NCBI RefSeq assembly: GCF_000688335.1
Contig: NZ_JHZX01000001.1
Span: 3,782,001-3,846,000, forward strand
Length of the DNA stretch: 64,000 nucleotides
Source of the DNA: Sediminibacter sp. Hel_I_10
GTDB taxonomy: Bacteria > Bacteroidota > Bacteroidia > Flavobacteriales > Flavobacteriaceae
Reading direction: 5' to 3'
Shown: piece after piece, positions 613 to 7,604 of the stretch
How positions within the stretch are numbered: the first letter of the stretch is position 1
Layout of the letters: every line of letters begins with the position of its first letter
The notes under the pieces: model-generated
Seen by the model: only the letters and a program-made list of their open reading frames with translations
The model's database searches: none
What the model was told of the DNA's origin: nothing
Program-made: the position numbers and the translations under genes

Positions 613-698
613 AAAGTTTATTTTTTATAATTATCTTTTTTTTCAAGACCTTATTGAGGTGTTTAAAAGTTTATTTAAACTTAATCTAAATAAACTTT
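613..698. promoter_or_regulatory. Candidate operator: AAAGTTTATTTA direct copy and perfect inverted repeat
   Basis: A 12-base arm AAAGTTTATTTA (666-677) and its exact reverse complement TAAATAAACTTT (687-698) are separated by 9 bases. A further direct copy of the first 11 bases lies at 613-623. The right arm overlaps the -33 TTTG (696-699) of the promoter of the next gene, a position where a bound repressor would block transcription. Regulation by iron is inferred from the genes downstream; the regulator is unknown. Confidence 0.5.
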
Positions 699-786: not shown

Positions 787-1986
787 ATGAAAAAAATCGC
801 CTTAAGTTTATTAGCCATTTCAGCTTTATTTACGTCATGCTCTAATGATGATGACAATACTATAACACAACCACAAGTGCTAGCTCCTGTAAGCTATACG
901 TTTGAGAGAAACGGAGAGTCTACAGTAGATTTCAACGGTCAAACCACACGAATTGCTATGGCTGGTGAATTGGCGTCAGCACTATTGGTAGAATCAAATA
1001 CAGAAACGCAACTAGATGGCATGTTTGCTCATGTTGAAGGAAACAATGATTTTGAAGATGCAGATTTAAACGCATCAGATAAAAGTGTTAGGTCTAAAGT
1101 TGCTGCGTCTAAAGATTATTTTTCTTCTAACGTAACACTTTCAAACACTATAAAAGCAGATTTTGATTTCTGGATTGAAGATCAAGCCAACAACGTTTTC
1201 CCAAATTGGAATAGCATTGCAACCGCAGGAAATGCAGGACAATTGCAACAAGCAGGTGGTGGCGCCATACGATATATAAACGCCAAGGGTTTTGAAAACA
1301 ATCAATTGGTCTCTAAAGGATTAATTGGTGGATTAATGATTGATCAAATCCTAAATAACTACTTAAGTACGGCAGTTTTAGACGAAGGTTCTAATATTGA
1401 AGATAATAATTCTGGTGTTGTAGTAGTAGACAAGACTTACACAACTATGGAGCACAAATGGGATGAAGCTTTTGGATATTTGTATGGTGCAGAAGCAGAT
1501 GCATCAATGCCTGTTTTAGGAGCAGATTCTTTTCTTAATGAGTATTTAGATCGTTTGGAGGCAGATGAAGATTTCTCAGGAATCGCGCAAACTGTTTTTG
1601 ATGCCTTTAAATTAGGCCGTGCTGCTATTGTTGCTAAAGATTATGATTTAAGAGATGCACAAGCAAACATTATAAAAACCAACTTGTCATTAATACCTGC
1701 TGTAAGAGCAGTACACTATTTACAAGCAGGAAAAGTGAAATTAGATGAGGGTGATATGGCTAGTGCATTTCACCAGCTCTCTGAAGGTTTTGGATTTGTC
1801 TACAGCTTACAGTTTACAAGACAACCAAACTCAGCTAATCCTTATTTTACAAATGCAGAAGTCATGGCTTATATCGCAGAACTTTCAGCAGAAAATGGGT
1901 TTTGGGATGTTACACCAGAAACTTTAGAGAGCATCTCTCAAGAAATTGCTGCACGTTTCAACTTTACTGTTGAAGCAGCAAACTAA
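787..1986 (+). CDS. DUF4856 family lipoprotein
   Basis: 399 residues with a type II signal peptide: MKKIALSLLAISALFTSC, lipidated at Cys18 and followed by SNDDDN, an acidic stretch of the kind often seen on flavobacterial lipoproteins. The mature part resembles the DUF4856 family of Bacteroidota, mostly helical proteins of about 400 residues with no known function. Its helices with conserved Trp/Asn/Gly pieces are reminiscent of imelysins, but no relationship is proven here. It is the first gene of a run with an imelysin lipoprotein, a gamma-carboxylase-like enzyme and a TonB receptor, so a role in iron or other metal uptake at the outer membrane is inferred. A palindromic operator candidate sits at its promoter. 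Confidence 0.8.
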   Translation: MKKIALSLLAISALFTSCSNDDDNTITQPQVLAPVSYTFERNGESTVDFNGQTTRIAMAGELASALLVESNTETQLDGMFAHVEGNNDFEDADLNASDKSVRSKVAASKDYFSSNVTLSNTIKADFDFWIEDQANNVFPNWNSIATAGNAGQLQQAGGGAIRYINAKGFENNQLVSKGLIGGLMIDQILNNYLSTAVLDEGSNIEDNNSGVVVVDKTYTTMEHKWDEAFGYLYGAEADASMPVLGADSFLNEYLDRLEADEDFSGIAQTVFDAFKLGRAAIVAKDYDLRDAQANIIKTNLSLIPAVRAVHYLQAGKVKLDEGDMASAFHQLSEGFGFVYSLQFTRQPNSANPYFTNAEVMAYIAELSAENGFWDVTPETLESISQEIAARFNFTVEAAN

Positions 1987-2025
1987 ATACTGAGTTGATC
2001 TCAAAAGCAAATAGTTCTCATTAGG

Positions 2026-2052
2026 TTGAACGTATTTGCATGTTTATCTTTG
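2026..2052 (+). promoter_or_regulatory. Promoter of the imelysin gene
   Basis: TTG at 2026-2028, 16 bases, then TATCTTTG at 2045-2052. This places the transcript start after about 2055 and excludes the in-frame TTG at 2026 as start codon, fixing the start at the ATG at 2077. Confidence 0.65.
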
Positions 2053-2076
2053 CAAAATGAAAAAGAAAAAGAAATT

Positions 2077-3201
2077 ATGATGAAGAAAATTGTTTTAAGC
2101 TTATTTACAATTGCGCTATTAATTGCCTGTTCAGAGTCTGATGACTCTGGATCTGGAACATCGTCAGATGGTTTTGACCGTCAAGCCATGTTGACCAATT
2201 GGGCAGATAATATTATTGTTCCAGCTTTTCAAGATTTAAATTCAGATTTAGCAGTATTAAAAACGGATAAAGATGCGTTTTTAGCAACTCCAAATCAAAC
2301 CACTTTAGATGCTTTAAGAACCTCTTGGTTAGAATCTTATAAGACTTGGCAGTATGTAGAGATGTTTGATATTGGTAAAGCAGAAGAGCTTAACTATGCA
2401 GATCAAATGAATATTTATCCTGCAAACATTACTAATATTCAAAATAATATTGCTCTTGGAGCGGGTAATTACAATCTGGCGGCACCAAGCAATAATTCAT
2501 CTGTGGGTTTCCCTGCTGTAGACTATATGTTATATGGTATTGCAAATACTGATGCAGAGATTATAGGCGCATTTTCAACCGATTCAAATTTTGAGAATAA
2601 TAAGACATATTTGTCTAATCTTATAGATAGAATGGATGCTTTGAGCCTTTTAATAACTAACGATTGGTTGACAAACTATCGAGATGTTTTTGTTAATAGT
2701 ACAGCAAATACAGCTACAAGTTCTACAAATAAATTGACCAATGATTTCATATTTTACTATGAGAAAGGATTGAGAGCTAATAAATTTGGTATTCCGGCAG
2801 GTGTATTTTCATCAACGCCTTTAAATACTAAAGTAGAAGCATTTTATAATGAAGAAGTATCTAAAGTTTTGGCTGATGAGGCTTTAAAAGCGGTACAAGA
2901 TTTCTTTAATGGTAAAGCTTACAATTCAGCGTCTACTGGAGAAAGTTTTCATTCGTATTTGGATTATTTAAATACTATCAAAGAAGGTGAGGATCTAAGT
3001 ACGATCATAAATAATCAATTTAATACCGCAGAGGGAAAAATTCAAGTTTTAGATAATAATTTTTCACAGCAGATCATCACTAACAATAATAAAATGACTG
3101 AGGCTTATGATGAACTTCAAAAAGCAGTGGTCTTGTTAAAAGTAGATATGGTGCAAGCCTTAAATATAAGTGTTGATTTCATTGACGCAGATGGCGATTA
3201 A
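2077..3201 (+). CDS. Imelysin-family lipoprotein (IrpA/EfeO-like, probable iron binding)
   Basis: 374 residues from the ATG at 2077 (2080 is also possible). A type II signal peptide ends in LLIAC, followed by SESDDSG. The mature part is helical and shows the imelysin hallmarks: LTNWADNIIVPAF near the start and the GFPAVDYMLYG motif at about residue 144, the counterpart of the GxHxxE/GFxAxE motif of the family. Bacteroidota imelysins commonly carry such altered residues, so the metal-binding residue set is uncertain. Imelysins are iron-regulated periplasmic or surface proteins. It has its own promoter and is followed by a strong terminator, so it can be expressed apart from the downstream membrane genes. 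Confidence 0.85.
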   Translation: MMKKIVLSLFTIALLIACSESDDSGSGTSSDGFDRQAMLTNWADNIIVPAFQDLNSDLAVLKTDKDAFLATPNQTTLDALRTSWLESYKTWQYVEMFDIGKAEELNYADQMNIYPANITNIQNNIALGAGNYNLAAPSNNSSVGFPAVDYMLYGIANTDAEIIGAFSTDSNFENNKTYLSNLIDRMDALSLLITNDWLTNYRDVFVNSTANTATSSTNKLTNDFIFYYEKGLRANKFGIPAGVFSSTPLNTKVEAFYNEEVSKVLADEALKAVQDFFNGKAYNSASTGESFHSYLDYLNTIKEGEDLSTIINNQFNTAEGKIQVLDNNFSQQIITNNNKMTEAYDELQKAVVLLKVDMVQALNISVDFIDADGD

Positions 3202-3223
3202 TAACTATTAACATATGATACTT

Positions 3224-3266
3224 AAGATTCTTTAGGGACATAATTCTCTAAAGAATCTTTTTTTTT
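3224..3266 (+). terminator. Intrinsic terminator directly before a start codon
   Basis: AAGATTCTTTAG (3224-3235) pairs perfectly over 12 bp with CTAAAGAATCTT (3248-3259), with a 12-base loop and a run of T to 3266. The ATG of the next gene begins at 3268, one base after the T-run. Either it separates the lipoproteins from the membrane genes, or it acts as an attenuator with partial read-through. Confidence 0.85.
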
Positions 3267-3267
3267 A

Positions 3268-4635
3268 ATGACCACAACAATCAAAACATATCTCAATACA
3301 ACTACCAATGCTGCGCCTCTTGCAGTATTTCGTGTATTTTTTGGTATCATGATGTGTTTTAGTCTTATCAGGTTCTGGTATCACGGCTGGATTGAAAAAT
3401 TTTATATTCAACCTAAATTCCATTTCAAATATTATGGTTTTGAATGGGTCAAATCTTTAGGAGAGTATAATTATCTGCTCTTTTTTTTCTGCGGAATCGC
3501 TGCGCTTTTTGTCGCATTGGGATTAAAATACAGAATAGCTATTATCGCCTTCTTTTTGAGTTTTACTTATATTGAACTCATTGACAAAACCACCTATCTC
3601 AATCATTACTATTTTATAAGTGTACTTAGTTTTTTAATGATTTTTCTACCTGCAAACGCTAAATTTTCAGTAGATAATTTACTTCGGAAAAACAGCTACC
3701 AAAACATCCCAAATTGGACGATAGATAGCATTAAATTATTATTAGGTATCGTCTATTTCTACGCAGGAATTGCAAAATTAAATAGCGATTGGTTACTTAG
3801 GGCAATGCCTTTAAAAATGTGGTTGCCCTCAAAATACGACTTACCGTTTATAGGTCATAATCTCATGCAACAAGATTGGTTTCATTACGCGATGAGCTGG
3901 TCTGGAATGCTATATGACCTCGCAATTCCGTTTTTGTTATTGTATAAGCGCACTCGTGTTTTTGCCTTTGTTTTAGTGGTTATTTTCCATGTGTTTACAC
4001 GTGTCTTATTCTCCATTGGCATGTTTCCATATATTATGATTGTTGCGACATTAATCTTTTTTGATGCTAGCGTTCACGAAAAAATAATTGCCATAATCAA
4101 GCGTACGATCAAACCTTTCCGAAGAAAAGTGAAAGCGTTCCAAACAATTGAAACGTACCGGTTTTCAAACCGAAAGATTATAGTCTCAATTATTGCTGTG
4201 TTCTTTGCATTTCAGATGGTATTTCCATTTCGGTATTTGTGTTATAAGAACGAATTGTTTTGGACGGAGGAAGGCTACAGACTATCATGGCGAGTTATGC
4301 TCATGGAGAAAGCAGGATTGGCAACGTTTAAAGTCGTAAATTCTAAAACCGGATCGTTTTTCTACGTGGAAAACTCTGATTTTTTATCAGCACTTCAAGA
4401 AAAGCAGATGAGTTTTCAACCTGATTTTATTTTAGAATACGCGCATTTTTTAGGAGATCATTTTACAGCCCAAGGCCATGAAAACGTGCAGATTTTTGTA
4501 GATAGTTTTGTGGCATTAAACGGTAGATTGAGTCAGCAGTATATTGATCCAACCGTAGATTTATATCAAGAAAAAGAATCATTTAAACCCAAAGATTGGA
4601 TATTACCATTTAAAGATGAGATTAAAGGATTTTAA
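3268..4635 (+). CDS. Vitamin-K-dependent gamma-carboxylase-like integral membrane protein (HTTM domain)
   Basis: 455 residues. The N-terminal ~280 residues form a multi-helix HTTM membrane domain; the C-terminal ~150 are soluble. Resemblance to human GGCX runs along the whole length: DKTTYLNHYY, SVDNLL, VYFYAGIAKLNSDW, FSIGMFPYIM, a YRLSWRVML stretch and the late VDSFVALNGRLSQQYIDP segment. His113 and Lys170 fall where GGCX has His160 and the catalytic base Lys218. GGCX carboxylates Glu side chains using reduced vitamin K, CO2 and O2; flavobacteria hold menaquinone in the inner membrane. Whether this protein carboxylates Glu is unknown; some bacterial homologues may do only part of the chemistry. 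The ATG at 3268 is the only plausible start. The gene overlaps the TonB receptor by 20 bases, so the two are probably translated from one mRNA. Confidence 0.85.
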   Translation: MTTTIKTYLNTTTNAAPLAVFRVFFGIMMCFSLIRFWYHGWIEKFYIQPKFHFKYYGFEWVKSLGEYNYLLFFFCGIAALFVALGLKYRIAIIAFFLSFTYIELIDKTTYLNHYYFISVLSFLMIFLPANAKFSVDNLLRKNSYQNIPNWTIDSIKLLLGIVYFYAGIAKLNSDWLLRAMPLKMWLPSKYDLPFIGHNLMQQDWFHYAMSWSGMLYDLAIPFLLLYKRTRVFAFVLVVIFHVFTRVLFSIGMFPYIMIVATLIFFDASVHEKIIAIIKRTIKPFRRKVKAFQTIETYRFSNRKIIVSIIAVFFAFQMVFPFRYLCYKNELFWTEEGYRLSWRVMLMEKAGLATFKVVNSKTGSFFYVENSDFLSALQEKQMSFQPDFILEYAHFLGDHFTAQGHENVQIFVDSFVALNGRLSQQYIDPTVDLYQEKESFKPKDWILPFKDEIKGF

Positions 4636-7042
4636 ATTAATTATAGCGTTTATTTTATTCAGTTTGCCAATTTTTGGCCAGACTGAAATTTCGGGTTATA
4701 TCACAAATGCAAATAACAACGAGGTCATCTCAAATGTTCAGGTGTATGATAAGGTTTCGGGGTTGTTGACCACCTCAGATGGTAATGGGTTCTATCAATT
4801 GTTTACTGATAAATCACAATTGACTTTAGTGTTTTACATTTCAGAATTTGAAATTTTAGAATTAGAGCAAACGGTTACAAAAGATATAGCGCTTAATATT
4901 ACGCTACAGCCTTTGCAAGAAAACCTTTCAGAAATAATAATTAACGCAAGACGTGCAAAAGTTTTTGAGCTCAATAGATTAAAAGACGTTGAAGAAACTG
5001 CCATTTATGCTGGTAAAAAAACAGAGGTTATTCTCGTGGATCAATCTATGGCAAATTTGGCCACCAATAATACGCGCCAACTTTATAGTCAGGTTGCAGG
5101 GTTGAATATTTACCAAAATGATGATGCAGGACTGCAGCTCAATATTGGAGGTCGTGGTCTAGACCCAAACCGAACCGCCAATTTCAATACCAGACAAAAT
5201 GGTTATGATATTAGTGCAGATGTTTTGGGGTATCCAGAGAGTTACTACACACCAGCGGCAGAGGGTTTAAAAGAAATTCAAGTGGTAAGAGGTGCTGCCT
5301 CGCTTCAATATGGAACGCAGTTTGGCGGACTCATCAACTTTAAAACAAAAGATCCGAACCCCAGTAAACCCTTAGAGTTAATTTCGAGAAATACATTGGG
5401 CAGTTTCGGTTTGTATACCAATTTTACAAGCTTGAGCGGCACCAAGGATAAATTTAGTTATTACACGTATTTCAATTACAAAAAAGGGGATGGGTTTAGA
5501 CCAAATTCTGAGTTTGAATCTAAAAATGTTTTTGCACATTTAGGTTACAAGTTCAATGAAAAAACGAATATTTCGGCAGAGTTTACCCATTTATATTATC
5601 TCGCTCAACAAGGTGGCGGATTGACAGATTCACAGTTCAATGAGGATGCTCTTCAAAGTAACAGATCGCGCAATTGGTTTAAGGTGAATTGGTTGTTGTA
5701 TAACCTAAAGTTGAGTCATAAATTTTCAGAAAAAACAAACTTTACCTTTAATGCTTTTGGGCTTAATGCGTCGCGCGATGCACTGGGTTTTAGAACCAAT
5801 CGGGTAGATCAAATTGATCCTAATGAAGAGCGCGATTTGATTAAAGGAGATTTTAAAAACTATGGAGCCGAGGCTAGATTGCTGAGTGAGTATAAGTTTT
5901 TTGGAAAAGAAGCGACATTCCTAATTGGTTCTAAATTTTACAAAGCGAATAATAACGAACAACAAGGTCCTGGATCTGATGGTATTGGGCCAGATTTTGA
6001 ATTCTACAATGATCAGTTTCCGAATTATCCATCACAGTCAAACTTTGATTTTCCTAATCTCAATGTGGCTGTTTTTGGCGAAAATATCTTTTATCTAAAT
6101 GATAAATTCTCGGTAACCCCTGGTTTTCGTTTTGAATATATAAAAACAGAAAGCGAAGGTTTTTTCAAACGCATCAACACTGACGCGGCAGGTAATGTAA
6201 TCTTTGAAGAAACGATTGAAGACAATCGTGATTTTGAACGCAATTTTGTTTTATTGGGTGTTGGGCTAAGTTATAAACCAACAACGGCCTTAGAAATTTA
6301 CGGAAACATATCGCAGAATTATCGATCGGTCACATTCTCAGATATTAACATTAATAATCCTGCTTTTGCAGTAAATCCCAATATTACAGATGAAGATGGT
6401 TTTACCGCAGATTTAGGCTTTAGAGGAAACTATAAAAATATAATCTCTTACGATTTAGGCGCTTTTGCATTGTTCTATAATGGACGAATTGGTTTTATAC
6501 AGAAAGAATTTGATAATGGAAGAATTATTAGTGAACGGGGCAATATAGGAGATGCAAGAATAGTAGGCATCGAATCTCTGGTGGATTTTAATCTGAAGAA
6601 AATTTTGAAAATGACTAATGATTTCAGCTTAAATTATTTTGTAAACGCATCTTTTATTTCTTCGGAATATACCCAATCGCAACAAGCAGGATTAGAAGGC
6701 AATGACGTAGAATTTGTGCCGGATGTAAATATCAAAACTGGATTAAGATTTGGATATAAAAATCTTCAGGCGAGTGCACAATATTCCTATTTAGGACGTC
6801 AATTTACAGATGCAACCAACTCTCAAGAAGCTAATTTAAGTGGTGTAATTGGTGCCATCCCACAATATGATATTTTGGATGTATCTTTATCTTATACTTA
6901 CAAACGATTTAAATTAGAAACCGGAATCAATAACCTTTTGGATGAGATCTATTTTACGCGAAGGGCTACTGGTTATCCTGGACCTGGAATCATTCCATCT
7001 TCACCGCGAAATTATTACGCGACCTTGCAGGTAAAATTTTAA
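4616..7042 (+). CDS. TonB-dependent outer-membrane receptor (FecA-like)
   Basis: 808 residues. A signal peptide of about 21 residues ends in FSLPIFGQ, followed by a carboxypeptidase-regulatory-like beta domain (about 23-108, common on Bacteroidota receptors), a plug domain (about 130-250, with LNIGGRGLDPNR and IQVVRGAASLQYG), and a 22-strand type barrel ending in the usual terminal Phe (LQVKF). The plug resembles ferric dicitrate/siderophore receptors more than SusC. There is no N-terminal signalling extension and no anti-sigma gene nearby, so no FecIR-type loop. The start lies inside the end of the gamma-carboxylase gene. Substrate is not readable from sequence; iron is inferred from the imelysin upstream. 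Confidence 0.9.
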   Translation: MRLKDFKLIIAFILFSLPIFGQTEISGYITNANNNEVISNVQVYDKVSGLLTTSDGNGFYQLFTDKSQLTLVFYISEFEILELEQTVTKDIALNITLQPLQENLSEIIINARRAKVFELNRLKDVEETAIYAGKKTEVILVDQSMANLATNNTRQLYSQVAGLNIYQNDDAGLQLNIGGRGLDPNRTANFNTRQNGYDISADVLGYPESYYTPAAEGLKEIQVVRGAASLQYGTQFGGLINFKTKDPNPSKPLELISRNTLGSFGLYTNFTSLSGTKDKFSYYTYFNYKKGDGFRPNSEFESKNVFAHLGYKFNEKTNISAEFTHLYYLAQQGGGLTDSQFNEDALQSNRSRNWFKVNWLLYNLKLSHKFSEKTNFTFNAFGLNASRDALGFRTNRVDQIDPNEERDLIKGDFKNYGAEARLLSEYKFFGKEATFLIGSKFYKANNNEQQGPGSDGIGPDFEFYNDQFPNYPSQSNFDFPNLNVAVFGENIFYLNDKFSVTPGFRFEYIKTESEGFFKRINTDAAGNVIFEETIEDNRDFERNFVLLGVGLSYKPTTALEIYGNISQNYRSVTFSDININNPAFAVNPNITDEDGFTADLGFRGNYKNIISYDLGAFALFYNGRIGFIQKEFDNGRIISERGNIGDARIVGIESLVDFNLKKILKMTNDFSLNYFVNASFISSEYTQSQQAGLEGNDVEFVPDVNIKTGLRFGYKNLQASAQYSYLGRQFTDATNSQEANLSGVIGAIPQYDILDVSLSYTYKRFKLETGINNLLDEIYFTRRATGYPGPGIIPSSPRNYYATLQVKF

Positions 7043-7166: not shown

Positions 7167-7604
7167 ATGAAGTTTTTGTTTCAATGTATAATTTTTTGTC
7201 TTTTATTAGTATCCTGCGGTGCTAAAAACCCAAAAATATTAAGCTCATCTACCAATAGCGTAAAATCATCTAGTGGTTATACGCCGTTTTTTGATATTAC
7301 AGCGTATTCAGAGGATGAAGAGTATGGGTTAATTGGGGAGAAACCGGTAAAAGTAGGTGAGATGAGCGTCCAAAATCAGTTACGTTATCTATCGTCTTTA
7401 GCTGGTCCCAATGGAGAAGAATTAAAGTTTCATAGAAGAGGATCTTGCTGCGGTTACAAAAGCGAAGGCGCTGCATTTGGATCTGCGCTAGTTGATGTTT
7501 ATGATGTAACTTATGATGGATTAAAGAAGCCCATTCAAATTTATATCAGTTTCTATGATTTTGAAACCTTATATATTCCTAAAGGTTTTACAAAGAGACT
7601 CTAG
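7167..7604 (+). CDS. Small hypothetical lipoprotein
   Basis: 145 residues with a type II signal peptide ending LLLVSC (Cys17). The mature protein is short and mixed alpha/beta, with a conserved-looking block FHRRGSCCGYKSEGA carrying a Cys-Cys pair, then a strand-rich tail ending IYISFYDFETLYIPKGF. The pattern recalls small flavobacterial lipoproteins of unknown function. It lies between the TonB receptor and guaB, 124 bases after the former, without a clear TAnnTTTG promoter. I assign no function. Confidence 0.75.
   Translation: MKFLFQCIIFCLLLVSCGAKNPKILSSSTNSVKSSSGYTPFFDITAYSEDEEYGLIGEKPVKVGEMSVQNQLRYLSSLAGPNGEELKFHRRGSCCGYKSEGAAFGSALVDVYDVTYDGLKKPIQIYISFYDFETLYIPKGFTKRL

Follow-up and report, generated by a model that had tools for sequence, protein, structure and literature searches.

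The 64,000-nucleotide stretch of DNA analyzed here (the window), from the flavobacterium Sediminibacter sp. Hel_I_10, carries a four-gene operon in which genes for a DUF4856 lipoprotein and an imelysin-like lipoprotein are followed by a gene of the vitamin K-dependent gamma-carboxylase (VKGC) family and by a gene for a TonB-dependent receptor. We conclude with high confidence, from its sequence and its predicted structure, that the protein encoded at 3268-4635 genuinely belongs to the VKGC family, keeps its catalytic residues and shares the fold of the human carboxylase GGCX, and we are equally confident, from genome comparisons, that the VKGC-bearing operon is conserved in Bacteroidota. There are also good grounds for linking the operon to iron, and Fur probably exerts at least some of the control. 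Family, fold, active-site conservation, operon conservation and the Fur-box-like site described below were all computed. To our knowledge, no function is known for the bacterial relatives of GGCX; we regard the locus as an established enzyme family in an unfamiliar type of setting, and the data would be compatible with a bold reading, bacteria that make gamma-carboxyglutamate (Gla) for iron.

The VKGC-family protein and its active site

A preliminary description of this DNA, made from its letters, had held that the protein is more than a generic HTTM protein and that it keeps the architecture of GGCX through its C-terminal part, and profile, sequence and fold comparisons all agree with this. 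Both Pfam domains are present along the full length of the protein, the HTTM domain with 261 bits (E 1.7e-77) and the VKGC lumenal domain with 203.1 bits (E 2.8e-60), the cut-off being 27.7 bits for each. When the protein was compared with the PDB using phmmer up to E 10, human GGCX was the only molecule recovered (8 distinct sequences, E 9e-42 to 1.4e-41), with residues 6-448 aligned to GGCX 52-505. The comparison of the predicted structure with GGCX, which had been proposed as a check, gave a whole-chain match: using an AlphaFold model made from the window protein and 49 relatives (pLDDT 86.7), Foldseek returned 16 hits at E <= 0.001 that were all GGCX (TMq 0.84; next hit at E 0.11), and VIA scored GGCX at Z 21.4-32.2, the best superposition covering 427 residues at 3.1 A, with the first non-GGCX match at Z 6.3.

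We then aligned the 97 VKGC proteins, window included, obtained from 395 evenly drawn Bacteroidota genomes (the phylum set, in which PF22777 is present in 82 genomes at 97 places and some stretches end at contig ends), together with the corresponding stretch of GGCX. These proteins divide into 72 of the cluster type, encoded beside a receptor like that of the window, and 25 others, among which that of locus L124 is broken into two open reading frames (ORFs) and that of L084 groups with the cluster type by tree. Functional roles were taken from the portions consulted of a 2025 cryo-EM paper on GGCX (PMC12589487), according to which K218 is the base, H160 lines both the quinone and the Glu pockets, the only role given for N159 is to touch the Glu side chain, the substrate backbone is held by N158 and R436, M401 sits in the wall separating the two pockets, N290 borders the isoprenyl tunnel and K217 couples the domains.

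In the window protein, the equivalents of K218, H160 and N159 are K170, H113 and N112, and these three positions, as well as those of W223, G259, F286 and F299, are invariant in all 97 proteins (72/72 cluster enzymes and 25/25 others). The earlier placement of His113 and Lys170 on His160 and Lys218 of GGCX was therefore confirmed by alignment, and the two residues turned out to be kept throughout the homologues. F294 has its equivalent in 72/72 cluster enzymes and in 21 of the 25 others, and the Y395 column holds Tyr (58/72) or Phe (14/72) in cluster enzymes and His in 23/25 others. Elsewhere the cluster enzymes differ from GGCX: the substrate-backbone residues are altered, N158 to Leu in 72/72 and R436 to Gln in 60/72, M401 is Val in 72/72, N290 is Thr in 71/72, K217 is Ala in 72/72 and C99 is Phe in 71/72. 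The C450 column has Phe in the window protein and Cys is outside its five commonest residues, so that neither the C99-C450 disulfide nor the K217 coupling of GGCX was found in the alignment of the 97 proteins. Judged from the invariant K218 and pocket columns and from the altered N158, R436 and M401, the enzymes therefore retain the base and most residues of the quinone pocket, and their substrate contacts have partly shifted.

Conservation of the operon and its link to iron

The preliminary description had named random association with the neighbours as an outcome that would speak against it, and this can be ruled out: 72 of the 97 VKGC places of the phylum set share their stretch with a window-type receptor, and 70 of these 72 also with an imelysin, the genes adjoining. 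A DUF4856 gene was detected by phmmer at 48 of the 72 cluster loci and a remote homologue at 13 more, giving at least 61/72. At these 13 loci, the lipoprotein gene 5' of the imelysin gene was joined to DUF4856, as a set, by hhalign (probability 99.9, E 2e-32); of the 7 such lipoproteins scanned with the Pfam DUF4856 model, only 3 scored above its cut-off. The 11 cluster loci left without a DUF4856 call include contig ends and L110, where a di-haem oxidoreductase gene takes that place and stands together with imelysin, VKGC and receptor-like genes. At the genome level, VKGC is present in 53 of 58 genomes with DUF4856 and in 72 of 90 with imelysin, counts uncorrected for shared ancestry, and cluster-type VKGCs as little as 39% identical to the window protein still have the same neighbours.

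A second sample (the relative set) took the 80 top-ranking loci out of a list of at least 581 relatives; these loci were chosen by similarity, include ones from Olleya and Zobellia, and may share species with the phylum set. The exact order DUF4856-imelysin-VKGC-receptor was found in 71 of these 80 loci, and in one more with a split receptor gene. The exceptions are three loci at contig ends, three Tenacibaculum loci and two Roseivirga loci. In the Tenacibaculum loci (L198, L201, L204), another membrane gene stands between imelysin and receptor and VKGC lies behind the receptor; at L198:4427-5404, the only one scanned, the protein in the usual VKGC place is a 325-aa membrane protein matching Pfam FA_hydroxylase. 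The two Roseivirga loci hold a DUF4856-VKGC pair, with no imelysin or window-type receptor in the stretch. In L094, VKGC and receptor form a pair with no imelysin in the full stretch, the imelysin gene of that genome being on another contig. We also considered VKGC as a plain replacement of the di-haem peroxidase of imelysin operons and discarded this idea, as L110 carries both. Two further arrangements were observed: in L289 and L290, a DUF4856 gene adjoins a gene whose product scores against the TonB receptor profile, in a stretch where neither VKGC nor imelysin was found, which offers a natural comparison for the contribution of VKGC, and a close relative has two tandem DUF4856 genes 5' of imelysin (L031:3028-5833).

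Sites resembling Fur boxes were scored as at least 15 of 19 matches, within 200 bases upstream of a gene, to the predicted Fur consensus of Riemerella (PMC5609570). Such a site precedes DUF4856 in 75/77 loci of the relative set, compared with 41/602 other genes of those loci, and 45 of the 48 DUF4856 genes of the phylum set. For the second kind of VKGC described further below, no site was found within 200 bases upstream (0/24, best score 13), and 2/24 had one within 1300 bases.

An RNA sequencing study of a Riemerella anatipestifer fur mutant lists, in its Table 4, a receptor, a VKGC, an imelysin lipoprotein and a hypothetical protein under consecutive locus tags (RAYM_09779-09794) among putative Fur-regulated genes (PMC5609570, in the part available). 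Upon iron restriction, these genes were upregulated 2.11-fold, 2.64-fold, 3.07-fold and 2.41-fold, respectively (same source). This run is most likely the same operon, the hypothetical protein presumably being DUF4856, as judged from the names in the table alone; it has receptor, VKGC and imelysin genes in common with the window operon and differs in being known as a table entry only. The preliminary description knew of no described system of this kind, which has to be amended for this entry. The word carboxylase occurs once in the main text of that paper, in that table. When open-access PMC literature was searched for gamma-carboxylase, TonB-dependent and iron together, the Riemerella paper (PMC5609570) was the only match, and a search of the same literature for DUF4856 matched no paper. 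In the portions available of PMC7567364, PMC13066512, PMC4758666, PMC5561996, PMC9331221, PMC9478572 and PMC9723704, the word carboxylase is absent.

A proposed carboxylation and its alternatives

We propose that the operon serves iron-regulated uptake in Bacteroidota. The DUF4856 lipoprotein and the imelysin, the latter probably of the IPPA type, are likely to be displayed at the outer membrane, where they would capture iron and hand it to a FecA-like TonB receptor. The VKGC protein would be an active enzyme of the inner membrane, where menaquinol would be oxidized with O2 at K170, and the resulting strong base, together with H113 and N112, would carboxylate Glu residues of a partner passing through the periplasm, one of the two lipoproteins being the likeliest partner. 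Its Gla groups, which resemble malonate, would serve to bind Fe(III) or a different cation. We favour this menaquinol-driven carboxylation of a partner lipoprotein, to which we give about an even chance on the basis of sequence and model comparisons and mainly on account of the enzyme and the operon. The wider idea that Bacteroidota use menaquinol to make Gla on surface lipoproteins, to serve as the group that captures iron or bridges cations in iron-regulated TonB uptake, is more tentative and falls somewhat short of an even chance. As the preliminary description had supposed, a menaquinone cofactor should be at hand, since menA, a gene of the menaquinone pathway, is present in the source genome.

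Surface display of the two lipoproteins is suggested by acidic residues following the lipobox Cys, much as in the signals for surface export of lipoproteins in Bacteroidota. Two or more acidic residues are found within the seven positions after this Cys in 67/71 DUF4856 proteins and 67/75 imelysins with a lipobox, counts that come with no background figure. The imelysin motif of the window reads GFPAVD (GxxxxD), the IPPA type having GxxxxE as opposed to GxHxxE, and the profile matches the Psychrobacter imelysin structure 3pf0 up to its C-terminal end. The receptor resembles siderophore or FecA-type receptors only through family matches that remain under cut-off; against NF041676, the FecA-type ferric dicitrate receptor, it scored 97.3 bits for a cut-off of 1100.

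The DUF4856 lipoprotein gave a model of pLDDT 94.2 without a convincing PDB match (best Foldseek E 0.7). A known fold could not be assigned using VIA either, for which the best Z was 7.5 (catenins) and imelysin reached 4.6, both within the uninformative range for helical models; FEA1 was not among the matches listed. The protein does match the NCBIfam model FEA1_rel_lipo (NF038033) over residues 219-343 with E 1.9e-9, but its 36.7 bits are far below the cut-off of 250, and by NF038033 it is therefore not a FEA1-related member. It is nevertheless a possible bacterial relative of the algal iron-assimilation proteins FEA1 and phytotransferrin, the latter, a distant relative, being described as binding ferric iron with carbonate (PMC7676907, in the part available).

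Different loci point to different partners for the enzyme. DUF4856 is favoured by Roseivirga, where it is paired with VKGC; imelysin by L110 and a Persicobacter plasmid, where it is paired with VKGC and profiles found no DUF4856; and the receptor by the overlap between its gene and that of VKGC. Candidate target residues were sought in both lipoproteins. A DGD tail ends 70/70 imelysins of VKGC clusters (69 aligned, one of them with DGDS, and the fragment L107), and 18 of the 25 imelysin-like ORFs examined, fragments and whole proteins, lack a DGD or DGDS end. This tail was nonetheless rejected as a VKGC-specific carboxylation target because it is also present in PDB 3pf0 and in the imelysins of L157-L160, operons without a VKGC neighbour whose genomes (G282, G182, G108 and G187) carry VKGC elsewhere. 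In DUF4856, E333 is kept in 126/126 sequences and E170 in 124/126; in five divergent DUF4856 proteins from genomes without PF22777, the E333 column reads Q, E, E, E, R and the E170 column A, E, D, D, E. With only five such comparators, these two residues are suggestive at best as VKGC-specific Glu and were not used as evidence. The invariant Glu residues of imelysin are E246 and E271 (391-residue numbering), the alignment at E271 including three imelysins without linked VKGC.

Several observations weigh against the proposed carboxylation. A VKGC homologue of Leptospira is reported not to act as a protein carboxylase; it is reportedly altered and unlikely to carboxylate proteins. Across the DUF4856 and imelysin alignments, no Glu was found that is invariant only alongside VKGC. 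Neither DUF4856 nor IPPA-type imelysins always come with a linked VKGC, and the 5 of 58 DUF4856 genomes outside the count given above have no PF22777 match. The altered N158, R436 and M401 positions belong here too, as does the length of the protein: its alignment with GGCX stops at the bacterial C-terminus, around GGCX 505-507, whereas GGCX reaches 758, so that by the domain assignments of PMC12589487 the protein lacks the arch and some of the propeptide-binding domain. VKOR is absent from the source genome, in which the VKGC gene, unlike that of human GGCX, stands in an iron-linked operon, and it is present in only 5 of the 30 VKGC-bearing genomes tested (and in 3 of 6 genomes without VKGC). 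Quinone recycling through VKOR was thus dismissed, and an epoxide, if made, would have to be lost or reduced otherwise. As to regulation, fur deletion in iron-rich medium raised the Riemerella receptor, VKGC, imelysin and hypothetical genes by 1.90-fold, 1.39-fold, 1.93-fold and 1.36-fold only, their iron response persisted in the mutant (2.70-3.07-fold), and none of the four has a Fur box listed in Table 5 (PMC5609570). The iron response being clear and the effect of fur modest, the link to iron is therefore strong and the case for full Fur control weaker; for the source organism itself, we infer regulation from the Fur-box-like site and these relatives.

An unlikely alternative, although one to be taken seriously, is that the enzyme carries out a menaquinol-dependent oxygenation without protein carboxylation, its base or electrons acting on iron, on a ferric ligand or on a small metabolite. 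The invariant quinone pocket and Lys218 equivalent would suit such a reaction, as would the altered N158 and R436 and the partly missing propeptide-binding region, and oxidative enzymes do occur in related places (the FA_hydroxylase protein of Tenacibaculum and the di-haem oxidoreductase of L110). Xu et al. also stress a link between imelysin and peroxidase (PMC3143127, in the part available). What speaks against it is the Asn159 equivalent, for which a contact with the Glu side chain is the only role described in GGCX and which is invariant in 97/97 proteins; His160, lining both pockets, is no argument by itself. It is quite improbable that VKGC carboxylates the TonB receptor rather than a lipoprotein, shaping its ligand site or plug. 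The 20-base ORF overlap, seen in the window and in 28 loci of the relative set, and the pair kept in L094 without imelysin would fit this possibility, but the two Roseivirga loci have VKGC and DUF4856 without a window-type receptor, and in L289 and L290 receptors accompany DUF4856 without VKGC.

More improbable still is an enzyme that acts outside the operon, for example on exported proteins in general, and that is only co-regulated with iron uptake: an unlinked second paralogue exists, lying in 16/24 loci directly behind the same gene, which we take to be ribF-like, and the cluster-type VKGC of L084 lacks these neighbours, but the constancy of the neighbours of cluster-type VKGC over a wide range of identity argues the other way. 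Finally, VKGC might have lost its activity and play a structural or assembly role in the receptor complex. The incomplete propeptide-binding region and the missing C99-C450 pair would be compatible with this, but the invariance in 72/72 cluster enzymes of the equivalents of K218, H160, N159, W223, G259, F286 and F299 makes it very unlikely. Carboxylation of a partner lipoprotein remains the reading that we favour. The preliminary description had suggested Glu carboxylation of a neighbour or a related quinone-dependent oxidation in iron acquisition, and this reading is supported in part, namely in the VKGC family assignment, the conserved residues, the operon with its Fur-box-like site and menA; no VKGC-specific Glu was found.

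Among known systems, the operons combining an ICMP, a di-haem oxidoreductase and an IPPA (PA4370-4372 type; PMC3143127, in the part available) and EfeUOB share with the window operon an imelysin with a DGD tail, in the window probably of the IPPA type, and a link to iron. They differ in that no VKGC or DUF4856 is present in the comparable L157-L160 operons, whose middle gene was judged by its length and the start of its sequence. The Leptospira homologue is likewise a bacterial member of the VKGC family (PMC4555120, in the part available).

The locus offers a testable setting, with an apparently complete catalytic site, a native supply of quinone, candidate substrates encoded alongside and iron starvation as a likely inducer. 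If the partners carry Gla, vitamin K-dependent carboxylation would be placed in bacterial metal uptake, hinting at the use of this reaction outside animals; it would be an unsuspected protein modification in a common group of marine and fish-associated bacteria and a non-clotting use of the vitamin K reaction, with 72 cluster loci in 395 genomes. If they do not, the system would reveal other uses of the GGCX fold with quinol and oxygen.

Gene layout, a proposed expression gradient and a second kind of VKGC

The features of the locus are collected in the table. The ORFs given in the preliminary description for the DUF4856, VKGC and receptor genes, and the overlap of the last two (4616-4635), were all recovered in the ORF list of the window, and Pfam matches together with ORF order bore out that the DUF4856 and imelysin lipoproteins precede the carboxylase-like gene. 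Pfam assigned DUF4856 with E 4.3e-151, imelysin (Peptidase_M75) with E 2e-23, and both barrel and plug of the TonB receptor. In the mechanical ORF list, the imelysin ORF starts at TTG 2026; a start at ATG 2077 or 2080 is more likely because it yields a lipoprotein signal.

Features of the VKGC operon in the window
Feature	Position	Strand	Remarks
Fur-box-like site ATTTAAACTTAATCTAAAT	673..691	+	16/19 matches to the predicted Riemerella Fur consensus; ends 95 bases 5' of the first gene
DUF4856 lipoprotein, 399 aa	787..1986	+	lipobox Cys18, then SNDDDN
Imelysin-like lipoprotein, 373 aa from ATG 2080	2080..3201	+	ATG 2077 also possible; C-terminal end DGD
Hairpin, 15 pairs, then T run	3224..3259	+	between imelysin and VKGC genes; z -5.87; probable partial terminator
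VKGC-family integral membrane protein, 455 aa	3268..4635	+	HTTM 11-267 and VKGC lumenal domain 302-451
TonB-dependent receptor, 808 aa	4616..7042	+	20-base overlap with VKGC gene

A 145-aa lipoprotein-like ORF without Pfam match lies directly after the receptor gene (7167-7604). It has a homologue in the same place in L031 and is probably outside the conserved four-gene core.

Hairpins within the operon were defined as structures below -8 kcal/mol with a T run within 110 bases after a gene. In the relative set, such a site follows imelysin in 58/77 loci (4/77 in mononucleotide shuffles), DUF4856 in 44/78, VKGC in 0/79, where the sequence searched is mostly receptor-coding, and the receptor in 8/74. 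Since the imelysin-VKGC gap is at most 10 bases in 24/74 loci, some of these hairpins lie inside the next gene; these gaps, like the 28 overlaps of exactly 20 bases counted above, were taken from mechanical gene starts. The hairpin of the window is probably a partial terminator that would lower downstream expression, and the intra-operon sites suggest a falling gradient of expression, with the lipoproteins in excess and the enzyme and receptor scarcer.

A FastTree phylogeny of 101 VKGC sequences, in which support at the deepest splits is low, separated two kinds of VKGC without interleaving. One group holds the 72 cluster enzymes, the lone L084 protein and a Persicobacter plasmid copy, and the other holds the 24 other copies with plasmid copies from Paracoccus and Bernardetia. 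The source genome has one VKGC of each kind. Its second copy (G000:C1:1710340; L038:7110-8459) has no imelysin, DUF4856 or receptor match in its stretch; the gene upstream of it is presumably ribF-like and the one downstream serS-like. With this unlinked paralogue, the VKGC family is therefore not tied to iron in every case.

The two plasmid loci below were noted in addition. On plasmid pPP1 of Persicobacter psychrovividus (L294:2192-7308), two imelysin-like ORFs stand 5' of the cluster-type VKGC, with no DUF4856 or receptor matches. On plasmid p1 of Paracoccus albus (L293:5923-7314), an alphaproteobacterial VKGC-family gene lies beside a divergent DUF393 gene, and its product keeps the equivalents of K218, H160 and N159; as this genus uses ubiquinone rather than menaquinone, the quinone of VKGC-family enzymes may therefore vary.

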